NCBI RefSeq assembly: GCF_003851885.1
Contig: NZ_BHZE01000002.1
Coordinates: 1 to 64,000, forward strand
Direction: 5' to 3'
Origin: Thermaurantimonas aggregans
Lineage (GTDB): Bacteria; Bacteroidota; Bacteroidia; Flavobacteriales; Schleiferiaceae
Length of the DNA: 64,000 bases
Shown: one piece after another, positions 52,540-57,547 of the stretch
Layout of the letters: each line of letters opens with the position of its first letter
How positions within the stretch are numbered: position 1 is the stretch's first letter
Notes under the pieces: model-generated
Seen by the model: only the letters and a program-made list of their open reading frames with translations
Told to the model about the DNA's origin: nothing
The model's database searches: none
Program-made: the position numbers and the translations under genes

Positions 52540-54891
52540 TTAAAAATTCCACGCAACACTAAACACCAAATTTCTGCCCATTTCATCGGCGAAGTATTTC
52601 CAGCGGTTTAAATAATCGCGGTACTTCTGGTTCAGAAGATTTTCAACCCCAATTGAAAATCGAAATAGGCTCTTCTGAGCAGGTAGGGTAAAGGAAATGG
52701 ATGAATTTAATAAAGTGTAACCGGCGGGAGGCGGCATAAAATCCTGCTCGGGTAGCACGCGCCTTTGTCGTGCTACAAACAGGCCGGTGATGCGCCAGTC
52801 AATGTTCTTGATTTTGTTAAGTTCGGGAAATGCGATAATTAAGGAAGTTTGTGCGCGGTTGGCGGGCATCCAGGCTAAGGGTTGTGATGTGCTTAAATTT
52901 TGAGCATAGAGAAAGGAACCTTTTGCTTCAAGAGTGAAGGGTTCGAAGGGGCCAATTTCTGCATTTACGTCCAGACCAGTGAGCAGAGCCAGATCGTGTT
53001 GATTGTACTTAAAAATCGGAAATGCACCGCGTATGGTAGAGCGAAGTTCGCCAGTAGGCTCAAGATTGATGAAATTGCGAAACAAGTATGCATAGGCATC
53101 GGCCTGAATAGTAAGTGATCCCTTGTGATAGAGAGTATTTACATGCTGTTGAATGCCGAATTCATTGCGCAGTGTACGATTACCTTCCTCAATGCCGGCT
53201 ACGCCCTGGTGTAAACCGAAGCTGTAGAGCTCATTTACATCTGGGGCTCGTAAGGTGAGTTGCCCTTCATATGTAATAGCTTTTCGAGCATCTCTGAAAA
53301 TGTTTGTAGCGAGATTAACCGTGTAGGTTTGAAAAGTTCTGAACTCCTCTCTAACCACCAGTGGCACACTGCGCTCAATTGGGAAGGCTTGCAAACGTAT
53401 AAGTTCGTATCGAAGACCATATGTATACTCCTGATTGAGGATTCTTTTTATGCCTGAGTGAAAAATTGCTACTCTGTAGCTTAAAAAATCGGGTATTAGC
53501 GGTAGAATTCCAGTTTCAGGATTGTTCGTATTGTCTGTCACCCTAAACTGAACACCTGTTTTTTGCAAATCTGAACGATAAGATATTTCGGTGTAAAAAT
53601 CATTTTGAATCAGACTTAGCGCCGGACGATCGTTTTCTCCACTTCTTCGAAAGTCAAATTCTTTTCGATCGTTGTGCTGAAATCCTACGCGTATGCGAAG
53701 GCTAGATTGGGGAGAGATGAACACATTGGTCAGATTATTTATCGTGTGGTGGGTAACTTCTTGTCGAGGTAAATCAATGCGCGATGAAAATTGGTCTTCT
53801 GTAAAGAAAGGTATGGGGCGGCTCAATGCCTCTTGAAGGTCAGAAACATTGCCTATATGTGCCCCTCGTAAAATGCCAAGAGTAGTTCGATAGTAATTGT
53901 AGTTGAAAATATTGTCAATCCGCGAGGAAATGTTCTTACGCCATAGCAAACCGTACGAAAATTCATGTACTCCGGTGTTGCGCAGGTAATAGTCAGGGGT
54001 ATGTAAGTCTCCGGCAGTTTTATAGGCTACATCTGCTCTTATGCCGCCGGCATTTGTATTTCCTTTTTCGAGTTTCAAATGCCCCCATGCACCTCGGCCA
54101 TTTGTAAAGATTCCCGACTGTAAACGTCCGTGGAGGTGTTGGTCGATAAAACTCGCTTTCTTGTCGGCCAGCATTGCTCCACCCATTTGGCCGGCTGGCA
54201 GTTCGACAGCGGCTATTCCACGTATCACGGCGATGCTATCGTACACTAGCGTGCTTACTTCCGGCGCATGATCGTTGCCCCATTGCTGGCCGGCTTGAGG
54301 CATGCCGTGATTAAGCACAGCAATGCGTTGTGCGTTCATACCGCGTATTATGGGCTTAGCTATTTGCCCACCGGTGCGAAGTACACTCACTCCTGGTATC
54401 GAAGTTACTACATCGGCAAGGGGTTTAAATTGGAGTCGCTCGATTTGAGCTGCTGATAGATGCTTTTGCGATGCACTGCCCGGAGCTATCTTTTTTTCAG
54501 TGATTGATACTTCCGGAAGTTCGATTACAGAATGCTGCAATCCGACGATTAGAATGGTGTCGCCTTTCAACTGAAGTGATCCCATCACGGGTTGGCAACC
54601 GGCATGCAAAATGGTGTAGTGATATTGCCCGTTGCAGAGTAGACGAAACTCCGCTCTCCCTTCTTTGCTCGTTAAGCTAGATCGACTAAGATTTCGGCCG
54701 TCTGAAATCGTTACAAAGGCGTCTTTCAAAGGCCTTTTGCTCCCAGCATCCTGAATCAGAAGGGTAAGCGAATGAGCACATGCGGACTGAGCTGCTGTCC
54801 AGATGGGCAGCACAATCAGCAATAAAGTGAACCGGCTAAGGCTTGATTTCAATGGGGAAAACAGCTTCAATGTCTGTTGAACCTCCGGCAT
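52540..54891 (-). CDS. TonB-dependent receptor, probable metal (zinc) uptake
   Basis: About 783 residues if started at the ATG at 54891; a TTG at 54852 gives a cleaner signal peptide (MKSSLSRFTLLLIVLPIWTA). Both overlap the end of the upstream lipoprotein gene, implying translational coupling. An N-terminal carboxypeptidase-regulatory-like domain (LTLLIQDAGSKRPLKDAFVTI) is followed by a plug (LADVVTSIPGVSVLRTGGQIAKPIIRG) and a barrel ending GRNLVFSVAWNF. The plug and the ENLLNQKYRDYLNRWKYFADEMGRN block near the end recall ZnuD-type receptors. Together with the His-containing lipoprotein partner and the operator upstream this suggests zinc import; the substrate is inferred, not shown. Confidence 0.88.
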   Translation of the reverse strand: MPEVQQTLKLFSPLKSSLSRFTLLLIVLPIWTAAQSACAHSLTLLIQDAGSKRPLKDAFVTISDGRNLSRSSLTSKEGRAEFRLLCNGQYHYTILHAGCQPVMGSLQLKGDTILIVGLQHSVIELPEVSITEKKIAPGSASQKHLSAAQIERLQFKPLADVVTSIPGVSVLRTGGQIAKPIIRGMNAQRIAVLNHGMPQAGQQWGNDHAPEVSTLVYDSIAVIRGIAAVELPAGQMGGAMLADKKASFIDQHLHGRLQSGIFTNGRGAWGHLKLEKGNTNAGGIRADVAYKTAGDLHTPDYYLRNTGVHEFSYGLLWRKNISSRIDNIFNYNYYRTTLGILRGAHIGNVSDLQEALSRPIPFFTEDQFSSRIDLPRQEVTHHTINNLTNVFISPQSSLRIRVGFQHNDRKEFDFRRSGENDRPALSLIQNDFYTEISYRSDLQKTGVQFRVTDNTNNPETGILPLIPDFLSYRVAIFHSGIKRILNQEYTYGLRYELIRLQAFPIERSVPLVVREEFRTFQTYTVNLATNIFRDARKAITYEGQLTLRAPDVNELYSFGLHQGVAGIEEGNRTLRNEFGIQQHVNTLYHKGSLTIQADAYAYLFRNFINLEPTGELRSTIRGAFPIFKYNQHDLALLTGLDVNAEIGPFEPFTLEAKGSFLYAQNLSTSQPLAWMPANRAQTSLIIAFPELNKIKNIDWRITGLFVARQRRVLPEQDFMPPPAGYTLLNSSISFTLPAQKSLFRFSIGVENLLNQKYRDYLNRWKYFADEMGRNLVFSVAWNF

Positions 54892-55405
54892 TTTCAATAT
54901 TTCCCTGAGCCACATCCGGCGCATTTTTATCTGGATAGTGACGAAGAACAATGCGTAAACTACCCGATGATGGGTTGCCCGTGATTACATCTACCAGCAG
55001 GCCGAGAGGTTTACCGTTAGGGTCAAAGTCTTTGTAAATGAATTGAGCTTCAATTTCTTCTGGTATGTAAAAGAACTGATGATCCTTAGCTGTGGCTAAA
55101 ATTTCGACATTTACGTTGCCCGGTGGGGTTTGTGTTTCGTCCCAAAGATTGAGGCTGCCGCGATAGGCTTGATTGGCCTTAATTTCACCTACTTGCGATA
55201 CCTGTGGTGGAATTCCACCCATGCCGTCGAGGTCAAAAAAGCGAAGCACAACACTGTCCGCAGGATTTTCACTGTTTTTTAAGAGAAATTCAAGCGTTGT
55301 AATCAGTTCGTTTTCTTTGGGTACTTCAGGCTTTTCTTTTTTGCAAGCATTTGATAATAAGATTGTTAGGCTAATTGCTAACAGTAATTTTGCAGAGTAG
55401 CTCAT
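54836..55405 (-). CDS. Lipoprotein partner of TonB receptor (family often labelled type 1 periplasmic binding fold)
   Basis: 189 residues. Lipobox SNAC with Cys near residue 21 (LLLAISLTILLSNACKK). The body is beta-rich: LITTLEFLLKN, VVLRFFDLDGMGG, AYRGSLNLWDET, AKDHQFFYIPEE, LGLLVDVITGNPSSGSLRIVLRHYP and the end GGSTDIEAVFPIEI. I recognise a Bacteroidota family of this length that is regularly found just upstream of a ZnuD-like TonB receptor. The DHQFF and LRHYP segments offer His ligands. First gene of a two-gene minus-strand operon under a dyad-overlapped promoter. A surface-exposed zinc-binding role is inferred. Confidence 0.82.
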   Translation of the reverse strand: MSYSAKLLLAISLTILLSNACKKEKPEVPKENELITTLEFLLKNSENPADSVVLRFFDLDGMGGIPPQVSQVGEIKANQAYRGSLNLWDETQTPPGNVNVEILATAKDHQFFYIPEEIEAQFIYKDFDPNGKPLGLLVDVITGNPSSGSLRIVLRHYPDKNAPDVAQGNIENAGGSTDIEAVFPIEIKP

Positions 55406-55467: not shown

Positions 55468-55496
55468 TTTTGAAGCTATAAATTTCGTTACATTTG
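55468..55496 (+). promoter_or_regulatory. rpsA promoter
   Basis: TTTTG (55468-55472) and a perfect TAnnTTTG, TACATTTG (55489-55496), are separated by 16 bases. Transcription would begin around 55501-55503, exactly at the first arm of the leader hairpin. Confidence 0.65.
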
Positions 55497-55500
55497 CAGC

Positions 55501-55618
55501 CCCTTTCCGGCAGCCTCGAAAAACTCAGAAAGGGTGATGAAAATGAATTGTTTAACACCTTCATTTTTTAAATGCTGCCTAAGAGTTTTTTTTAAAAAAT
55601 GAATACAAATACTTCTTC
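55501..55618 (+). promoter_or_regulatory. Structured rpsA leader with predicted pseudoknot
   Basis: Four sets of complementary segments occupy the leader. CCCTTTC 55501-55507 pairs with GAAAGGG 55528-55534. Its loop holds GGCAGC 55509-55514, complementary to GCTGCC 55574-55579, and AAAAACTC 55519-55526, complementary to GAGTTTTT 55583-55590. AAAATGAA 55540-55547 pairs with TTCATTTT 55560-55567. The crossing order of the middle two makes a pseudoknot-like fold. Feedback control by S1 protein is the natural guess, as rpsA is autoregulated in enterobacteria. Confidence 0.6.
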
Positions 55619-57547
55619 ATGAACGAAGAAAACAAAACCAACCAAGAAAATCCTGAAATGGACATCCATGCTCAGGTATCTGCTGAGACAACTACACCAG
55701 CAGAAGAAACCCACAGCACAGCTGAAGAAGCTGCAACACCAGTCGAAACAACCGCTGAAACACCCGTAGCTTCAGCCGTATCAAGCGATAGCGAAGAATT
55801 TGACTGGGATGAATTCGAAACAGGCCTGAAAAAGTTCAGCCAAGAGAAAAAGGCCGAAATCACTTCCCTCTACGAAAAGACTATCGGAAAAATCGAAGAG
55901 CACGAAGTAGTAATAGGCAAAATCGTAGCTAAAACCGACCGCGAAGTAATCGTTGACATCGGCGGTAAGTCTGAAGGCGTGATTTCACTCAACGAATTCC
56001 GTTACAACCCCGACCTGAAGGTGGGCGACGAAGTAGAAGTGATGGTTGATCGCCGTGAAGACAAAAACGGACAGCTCGTGCTCTCACACCGCAAGGCAAG
56101 AGCCGTGAAAGCCTGGGATCGCGTAAATGAAGCTTATAACAACGACGAGATCGTTCAAGGCTTCATCAAGTGCAAGACCCGCGGTGGTATGATCGTTGAC
56201 ATCTTCGGCATCGAAGCCTTCTTGCCAGGTTCGCAGATTGACGTTCGTCCCATCAAAGACTACGATATATATGTGGAGAAGACCATGGATTTCAAAATCG
56301 TAAAAATCAATCACGAGTTCAAAAACGTGGTCGTATCACACAAAGCCCTAATCGAAGCCGACCTCGAAGAGCAAAAGCGTGAAATCATTTCCAAGCTTGA
56401 AAAAGGTCAGGTGCTCGAAGGTGTTGTTAAAAACATCACTTCTTACGGGGTATTTATCGATCTGGGCGGAATAGATGGTCTCATCCACATCACCGACCTC
56501 AGCTGGAGCCGCATCAATCACCCCAGCGAAGTGGTGGAAATGGACCAGAAGCTCAATGTGGTAATTCTCGACTTCGACGAAGCTAAAACGCGCATTCAGC
56601 TCGGCCTCAAGCAGCTCACACCACATCCATGGGATTCGCTTGATCCTAACCTCAAGCCCGGCGATAAAGTGAAGGGCAAAGTTGTGGTACTCGCTGATTA
56701 TGGTGCCTTTATCGAAATCATTCCTGGCGTGGAAGGTCTTATCCACGTGAGTGAAATGAGCTGGAGCAATCACCTCCGCAGCGCACAAGACTTCGTGAAA
56801 ATCGGTGATGAAGTAGAAGCTGTAATCCTCTCGCTCGACCGCGAAGAGCGCAAAATGTCACTCGGCATGAAGCAGCTCACACCTGATCCCTGGGCCGATA
56901 TTGAAACAAAATACCCAGTAGGCTCCATTCACGAAGGTCAGGTGCGCAACTTCACCAACTTTGGTGTATTCGTTGAGCTCGAAGAAGGCATCGACGGCCT
57001 CATCCACATCTCTGACCTCAGCTGGACACGTAAGATCAAGCATCCATCAGATTTCACACATATCGGCGCTCGCCTGAAGGTGATGGTGCTCGAAATCGAC
57101 AAAGAAAACCGTCGCCTCAGCCTCGGCCATAAGCAAGTGACCGAAAACCCCTGGGATGTGTACGAAACCCTGCTTGAAGAAGGCAGTGTACTCTCAGCCA
57201 AAATCGTTGAAATGGTAGATGGTGGTGCCAACGCCATAATAGAAAACATCGGCTTGGAGGCATTCGTTCCCAAGCGCCATCTTACTAAGGCCGACGGCAG
57301 CCAGCTCAAGGTAGATGAAGTGGCTGACTTCAAAGTGATCGAGTTCAGTAAAGAAAATCGCCGAATAGTGCTTTCACACACCGATCTAGTGAAGGCTGCT
57401 GAAAATGAGGCTGCCGAAAAAGCTGCACGCAGTACCAAAGATGCTGTAAAGCGCATTCAGAGTAAAGTTGAAAAGACCACTCTCGGCGACATTGAGGCCC
57501 TTTCACAGCTCAAGGCCGACCTCGAAAAGCAAGACAACAACAAATAG
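55619..57547 (+). CDS. rpsA: 30S ribosomal protein S1
   Basis: 642 residues. An acidic, Thr/Ala/Glu-rich N-terminal extension of about 75 residues is followed by S1-type OB-fold repeats. Repeat marks: VVIGKIVAKTDREVIVDIGGKSEGVI, VQGFIKCKTRGGMIVDIFGIEAFLPGSQ, LEGVVKNITSYGVFIDLGGIDGLIHITDLSW, VKGKVVVLADYGAFIEIIPGVEGLIHVSEMSW, HEGQVRNFTNFGVFVELEEGIDGLIHISDLSW and a sixth, more divergent one (LSAKIVEMVDGGANAIIENIGLEAFVP). S1 binds mRNA on the 30S subunit and helps start translation. This matters in Bacteroidota, where Shine-Dalgarno pairing is little used. It ends with a strong terminator. Confidence 0.96.
   Translation: MNEENKTNQENPEMDIHAQVSAETTTPAEETHSTAEEAATPVETTAETPVASAVSSDSEEFDWDEFETGLKKFSQEKKAEITSLYEKTIGKIEEHEVVIGKIVAKTDREVIVDIGGKSEGVISLNEFRYNPDLKVGDEVEVMVDRREDKNGQLVLSHRKARAVKAWDRVNEAYNNDEIVQGFIKCKTRGGMIVDIFGIEAFLPGSQIDVRPIKDYDIYVEKTMDFKIVKINHEFKNVVVSHKALIEADLEEQKREIISKLEKGQVLEGVVKNITSYGVFIDLGGIDGLIHITDLSWSRINHPSEVVEMDQKLNVVILDFDEAKTRIQLGLKQLTPHPWDSLDPNLKPGDKVKGKVVVLADYGAFIEIIPGVEGLIHVSEMSWSNHLRSAQDFVKIGDEVEAVILSLDREERKMSLGMKQLTPDPWADIETKYPVGSIHEGQVRNFTNFGVFVELEEGIDGLIHISDLSWTRKIKHPSDFTHIGARLKVMVLEIDKENRRLSLGHKQVTENPWDVYETLLEEGSVLSAKIVEMVDGGANAIIENIGLEAFVPKRHLTKADGSQLKVDEVADFKVIEFSKENRRIVLSHTDLVKAAENEAAEKAARSTKDAVKRIQSKVEKTTLGDIEALSQLKADLEKQDNNK

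Follow-up and report, generated by a model that had tools for sequence, protein, structure and literature searches.

Bacteroidota ribosomes hide their anti-Shine-Dalgarno sequence, and ribosomal protein S1 is a prime suspect in start-codon choice. S1 binds AU-rich sites and pseudoknots with high affinity, and in gammaproteobacteria it represses its own mRNA (PMC10931766). In the tisB mRNA, S1 and the 30S subunit are recruited by a 5'-end pseudoknot together with a single-stranded site (PMC7708055), and bS1 is proposed to read an A-rich stretch at -12/-13 in F. johnsoniae (PMC6847099). Here we analyzed the region upstream of rpsA in a 64,000-nucleotide stretch of DNA from Thermaurantimonas aggregans (the window), for which the initial annotation had proposed a pseudoknot-capable leader RNA. 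That proposal is strongly supported by compensatory change, by specificity in whole-genome searches and by conservation over the order Flavobacteriales and beyond. Judged by comparative sequence analysis, the rpsA 5' UTR is a conserved cis-acting RNA, and a pseudoknotted one in most Flavobacteriales.

The coordinates of the locus are collected in Table 1. The gene is rpsA, its product scoring 902 bits against NF004953 (NCBIfam cut-off 720) and containing six stretches matched by Pfam S1. Translation starts at the ATG at 55619, and on the other side of the leader lies a small divergent gene (54836-55405, minus strand). A TAnnTTTG box is found at the equivalent place ahead of the leaders of relatives, and the transcript is predicted to start at about 55500. 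The leader has no canonical Shine-Dalgarno sequence, positions 55604-55618 reading TACAAATACTTCTTC. As to the protein itself, an acidic extension of very variable length stands ahead of the first S1 domain in the window (G000:C2:55619-55795) and in relatives, and S1 open frames range from about 595 to 838 aa across the order, with one of 1184 aa in the class.

Table 1. Features of the rpsA locus and its leader, in window coordinates
Feature	Sequence	Position	Strand	Basis or remark
-7 promoter box, Bacteroidota type	TACATTTG	55489..55496	+	read directly in the sequence
P1 5' strand	CCCTTTC	55501..55507	+	pairs with 55528-55534
PK1 5' strand (a), in P1 loop	GGCAGC	55509..55514	+	pairs with 55574-55579
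PK2 5' strand (b), in P1 loop	AAAAACTC	55519..55526	+	pairs with 55583-55590
P1 3' strand (P1')	GAAAGGG	55528..55534	+	1 nt after PK2 b
A/U-rich linker, predicted single-stranded	with GUUUAAC	55535..55559	+	comparable length and make-up in relatives
5' arm of 8-bp hairpin, P3 competitor	AAAATGAA	55540..55547	+	in window and Schleiferia, not general
P3 5' strand	TTCATTTTTTAAA	55560..55572	+	pairs with 55591-55603
PK1 3' strand (a'), in P3 loop	GCTGCC	55574..55579	+	pairs with 55509-55514
PK2 3' strand (b'), in P3 loop	GAGTTTTT	55583..55590	+	pairs with 55519-55526
P3 3' strand (P3'), ends 15 nt ahead of start codon	TTTAAAAAATGAA	55591..55603	+	pairs with 55560-55572
AUACAA, conserved; first A paired in P3	AUACAA	55603..55608	+	alignment; about 10-20 nt ahead of start codon
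rpsA, ribosomal protein bS1, 642 aa, six S1 domains		55619..57547	+	NCBIfam NF004953 and Pfam S1

Four perfect pairings had been described between the -7 box and the rpsA ATG, namely P1, PK1, PK2 and an 8-bp hairpin, and all four are present there letter for letter. As parts of a conserved fold, P1, PK1 and PK2 are kept across relatives, whereas the hairpin is not and gives way to a longer helix, P3, which in the window is a 13-bp RNA duplex (UUCAUUUUUUAAA/UUUAAAAAAUGAA). Comparative evidence shows that an H-type pseudoknot of P1 and PK2 stands at the very start of the mRNA and that PK1 links loop 1 of this pseudoknot with loop 3; P3 closes around a' and b' and ends at AUACAA, about 15 nt ahead of the AUG. 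The H-type order S1-L1-S2-L2-S1'-L3-S2' with a short L2 is satisfied by P1 and PK2. In 27 of 40 divergent leaders b and P1' are separated by 0-2 nt, and the single nucleotide in the window is the spacing expected for coaxial stacking in such a pseudoknot. All four helices may coexist, or they may alternate.

The view that the pairings exceed chance holds for P1, PK1 and PK2 taken with P3: their summed stacking energy in the window leader is -50.5, compared with -26.4 +/- 3.2 in dinucleotide shuffles (0/300). The nested folding energy of the same leader is unremarkable (z -1.51), which may explain why energy-based screens missed it. P1 and P3 are both present in its minimum-energy fold (ViennaRNA). 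In this fold the linker (GATGAA...) is also paired with TTCTTCATG, a pairing that would cover the start codon (55536-55621).

The leader is about 90% identical in the sister genus (Schleiferia thermophila, G014), whose S1 is 95% identical to that of the window. PK1 reads GACAGC/GCTGTC there in place of GGCAGC/GCTGCC, so that pairing is kept. A search of relatives at the DNA level found nothing outside the sister genus, and leaders were therefore retrieved by anchoring on the protein: S1 could be placed in 78 of the 88 genomes of the family and in 284 of the 296 of the order, and the upstream regions were fetched. These leaders, of about 85-125 nt, have a common layout in which P1, at the extreme 5' end with a and b in its loop, is followed by P1', the A/U-rich linker and P3; the P3 loop carries a' then b', and after P3' come AUACAA, 6-22 nt and the AUG. 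In a joint search the helix order P1 a b P1' linker P3 a' b' P3' was found in 136 of 138 Flavobacteriales rpsA leaders. The helix sequences themselves are unrelated: in 41 leaders less than 70% identical, PK2 occurs as 40 different strand pairs and P3 as 39. PK1 is weak in several genera. AUACAA, which P3' abuts, is invariant in an alignment of 22 sequences; among the 50 window ORFs of at least 120 aa, rpsA alone has ATACAA within 30 nt upstream.

Since MAFFT misaligned the loops when given the whole divergent set, we tested the pseudoknots by partner swap and by alignment to a covariance model of P1 and P3. In the partner swap, 3' partners are exchanged between species while composition, position and conserved motifs stay unchanged. 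With 41 divergent leaders and 20000 permutations, z was -9.8 for P1, -6.4 for PK1, -12.5 for PK2 and -11.9 for P3 (0/20000 each), in agreement with a prior run on 42 leaders. A nested order of the two loop pairings was rejected as the poorer fit (z -7.0 versus -10.9 for the crossing order a b a' b'). RNAalifold, run on a plain MAFFT alignment of 22 leaders, also found P3, with compensatory change in five of six pairs.

The covariance model was built from P1 and P3 only, with the window outside its seed. Of 100 leaders it matched 86 where expected, the window among them (42.9 bits, E 1.8e-4 among the fetched loci). P1 and P3 together were 93.8% paired in the resulting alignment, and covariation was 0.653, compared with 0.306 when shuffled and at most 0.184 when slid. 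By helix, 91% of cells were paired in P1, with compensatory changes present, and 96% in P3, with double changes in five of the six model pairs. PK2 and PK1, to which this alignment was not fitted, each gave 0/500 in shuffles, and a blind scan of all loop-loop diagonals ranked PK2 top and PK1 second.

The compensatory changes sought among relatives were thus found for P1, PK1 and PK2 but not for the 8-bp hairpin. The latter joins AAAATGAA (55540-55547) to TTCATTTT (55560-55567), the partner given to the first strand of P3 being an upstream stretch, AAAAUGAA, that resembles the P3 3' strand. Its sequence is also found in Schleiferia, but pairing of the linker with the P3 5' strand is not enriched in relatives (z +0.95). 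The 3' strand of the hairpin belongs to the longer conserved P3, with which it competes, and P3 replaces it in the corrected fold. In the window and Schleiferia the linker copy matches part of the P3 3' strand (55540-55567), so the P3 5' strand could find an upstream partner while P3' is still to be transcribed; this copy may be a lineage-specific kinetic switch.

The covariance model search bore out the annotation at the genome scale as well, its matches lying mainly upstream of rpsA. Run on 296 Flavobacteriales genomes, the model gave 57 matches (E<=0.01) in 56 genomes; with strict filters at this scale it missed the window. By hand-compared coordinates 43 of the 57 lie just upstream of S1, four further matches (G030, G294, G132 and G298) are followed by an S1-like N-terminus, and nine were outside the coordinate comparison. 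Among those placed, one lies elsewhere than in an rpsA leader (G017:C34:8613-8705, E 0.007). As in described r-leaders, the element occupies the 5' UTR of a ribosomal-protein gene, in the window and in all leaders examined, has a covarying structure and, on these counts, is confined to rpsA.

Outside Flavobacteriales the model had no reach in a search of other Bacteroidia orders. A simpler leader of P1, PK2 and P3 is nevertheless present there: P3 abuts AUACAA in 13 of 40 rpsA upstream regions, and partner swap gave z -7.7 for P3 (0/20000) and -3.6 for the upstream-loop pairing (3/20000). By inspection, with no significance test, two Bacteroidales groups have no AUACAA but do have P1, PK2 (for example AAACCCGG/CCGGGUUU, GAAUCCGG/CCGGAUUC and UACCCGG/CCGGGUA) and a hairpin resembling P3 that encloses b'. 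The full fold was not found in the short rpsA leaders of Rikenellaceae and Prevotella-like genomes. Those leaders (L085-L089, L084, L122 and L145) have in the pseudoknot's place a common ACATAAWGTCTAAC element, with a TNTAAC core reminiscent of GUUUAAC in the linker of Flavobacteriales. Given the limited reach of the model, common descent of the leader across the class is likely but not proven.

We consider control of its own translation in response to S1 to be the most likely function of the leader, a reading that we favor with some reserve. The leader would then probably be a switch that sets the amount of S1, with the ligand and the direction of control inferred by us from the arrangement of its parts; binding of S1 and repression of its own mRNA through the leader would fit all observations. 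In the proposed mechanism, free bS1 would bind the pseudoknot and the A/U-rich linker, itself a candidate landing site for S1 or the 30S subunit, and stabilize the P3/pseudoknot fold. The stabilized fold would keep the 30S subunit off the adjoining AUACAA-AUG region, so that an excess of S1 over ribosomes would lead to repression of rpsA. With S1 in short supply, or already bound to the 30S subunit, 30S-bound S1 would land on the linker and melt P3, and translation would start. The end of P3, about 15 nt before the AUG, falls at the edge of the expected 30S position. Overall, S1 would regulate its own synthesis by feedback in a lineage that initiates translation without Shine-Dalgarno pairing.

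Several features can also be read in other ways. The main rival, which we regard as unlikely, is an S1-dependent standby site or enhancer in place of a feedback repressor, in which the 5' pseudoknot would anchor 30S-bound S1 beside the linker for delivery to AUACAA-AUG and strong rpsA translation. The parts are those of the tisB site (5'-end pseudoknot, then single-stranded A/U-rich RNA, with structure near the start), and P3 ends directly ahead of the initiation region. However, a P3 so strongly conserved would hinder initiation, making a gate more sensible than a pure enhancer, and ribosomal-protein leaders are usually feedback devices. S1 binds RNA loosely, and so elaborate a conserved fold could serve another ligand, which counts against S1 as the one sensed. 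Control of rpsA translation by another ribosomal protein, a metabolite or temperature would suit a fold of this kind, whose variable helix sequences are aptamer-like, and Flavobacteria and Bacteroidia do have r-leaders for other proteins (PMC7247131). We think such a signal quite unlikely, given that the model matches essentially once per genome and nearly all placed matches precede rpsA, which favors the gene's own product; moreover, the unpaired segments show none of the long invariant stretches that small-molecule pockets usually have.

A stability or processing element, in which the 5'-terminal P1 and pseudoknot would shield a highly expressed mRNA from 5'-end decay with no regulation, is improbable: in every relative P1 does begin where the transcript is predicted to begin, but P3 beside the start site and AUACAA would be left unexplained. 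A transcription attenuator or a leader-peptide device was suggested by a U-run after PK2' and by an in-frame 21-codon ORF (55537-55602, MKMNCLTPSFFKCCLRVFFKK) in the window, and is largely refuted by the alignment, leaving it barely credible. In the sister genus, at 90% identity, this uORF has lost its ATG and its frame has moved, and the U-run, which relatives lack, is the variable strand PK2'. Two observations weigh against S1 feedback itself, namely that in some Bacteroidia orders the leaders are short and the full fold is missing, and that PK1 is weak in the genera mentioned above.

Extended to the class, S1 feedback would make the leader an ancient, Bacteroidia-wide pseudoknot switch through which bS1, when in excess, would be sensed and would close a helix beside the start codon, and the first S1 feedback leader outside gammaproteobacteria. 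We advance this wider picture tentatively, with doubt slightly outweighing belief. If true, autogenous S1 control would extend to a second phylum through a different fold, and S1 feedback would operate in a phylum that initiates without Shine-Dalgarno pairing and in which S1 is believed to be most important for initiation. Linked to the S1 gene across almost the entire order, this conserved structured RNA is a natural candidate for an S1-responsive (or S1-recruiting) element to study, and it offers defined helices for break-and-restore mutants along with the AUACAA element.

The 20 r-leader candidates of Eckert and Weinberg and Flavo-1 (RF01705) are likewise RNA motifs found by comparison, some of them in Flavobacteria or Bacteroidia; no rpsA or bS1 motif was found in the text on the 20 candidates (PMC7247131). 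No Rfam 15 family, Flavo-1 included, matched the window leader or those of 20 relatives at the gathering cut-off, and matches below threshold were at chance level. An unrelated cobalamin riboswitch (RF00174, 90.8 bits) lies near rpsA of a Flavobacteriales MAG (L078:395-597, minus strand). In the main texts of the open-licence papers examined, an S1 leader is not described in Bacteroidota (PMC7247131, PMC2864571, PMC6429828, PMC8040213, PMC11109978, PMC8632094), nor elsewhere outside gammaproteobacteria, and the main text of PMC9723704 has none in Bacteroidota.

Among regulated ribosomal-protein mRNAs, rpsU (bS21) of Flavobacteriales is also under autogenous control and belongs to the same order, but it works by an extended Shine-Dalgarno (SD) sequence and SD/anti-SD exposure rather than by a folded leader and is reported to be largely bS1-independent (PMC9976891). 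Pseudoknot leaders also precede uS15 (rpsO) and uS4 (alpha operon), and the mycobacterial rpsO pseudoknot lies upstream of the start, as here (PMC10931766); these involve other proteins and other folds, and repression was measured there. The tisB site of E. coli is alike in its H-type pseudoknot at the 5' end, the single-stranded RNA that follows and the structure near the start, and it is bound by S1 (PMC7708055). It differs in gene, organism and sequence, is an activating standby site under antisense RNA and has no second crossing helix. The gammaproteobacterial (E. coli type) rpsA leader shares with the Flavobacteriales leader the gene, a structured 5' UTR, the lack of a Shine-Dalgarno sequence and A/U-rich single strands. 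Its published description gives a specific fold, kept in several families of gammaproteobacteria and with AU-rich single strands, and mentions no pseudoknot (PMC10931766). Set against this description, the leader described here stands apart as pseudoknotted, with a helix next to the AUG and in another phylum, while repression is known for the gammaproteobacterial one.
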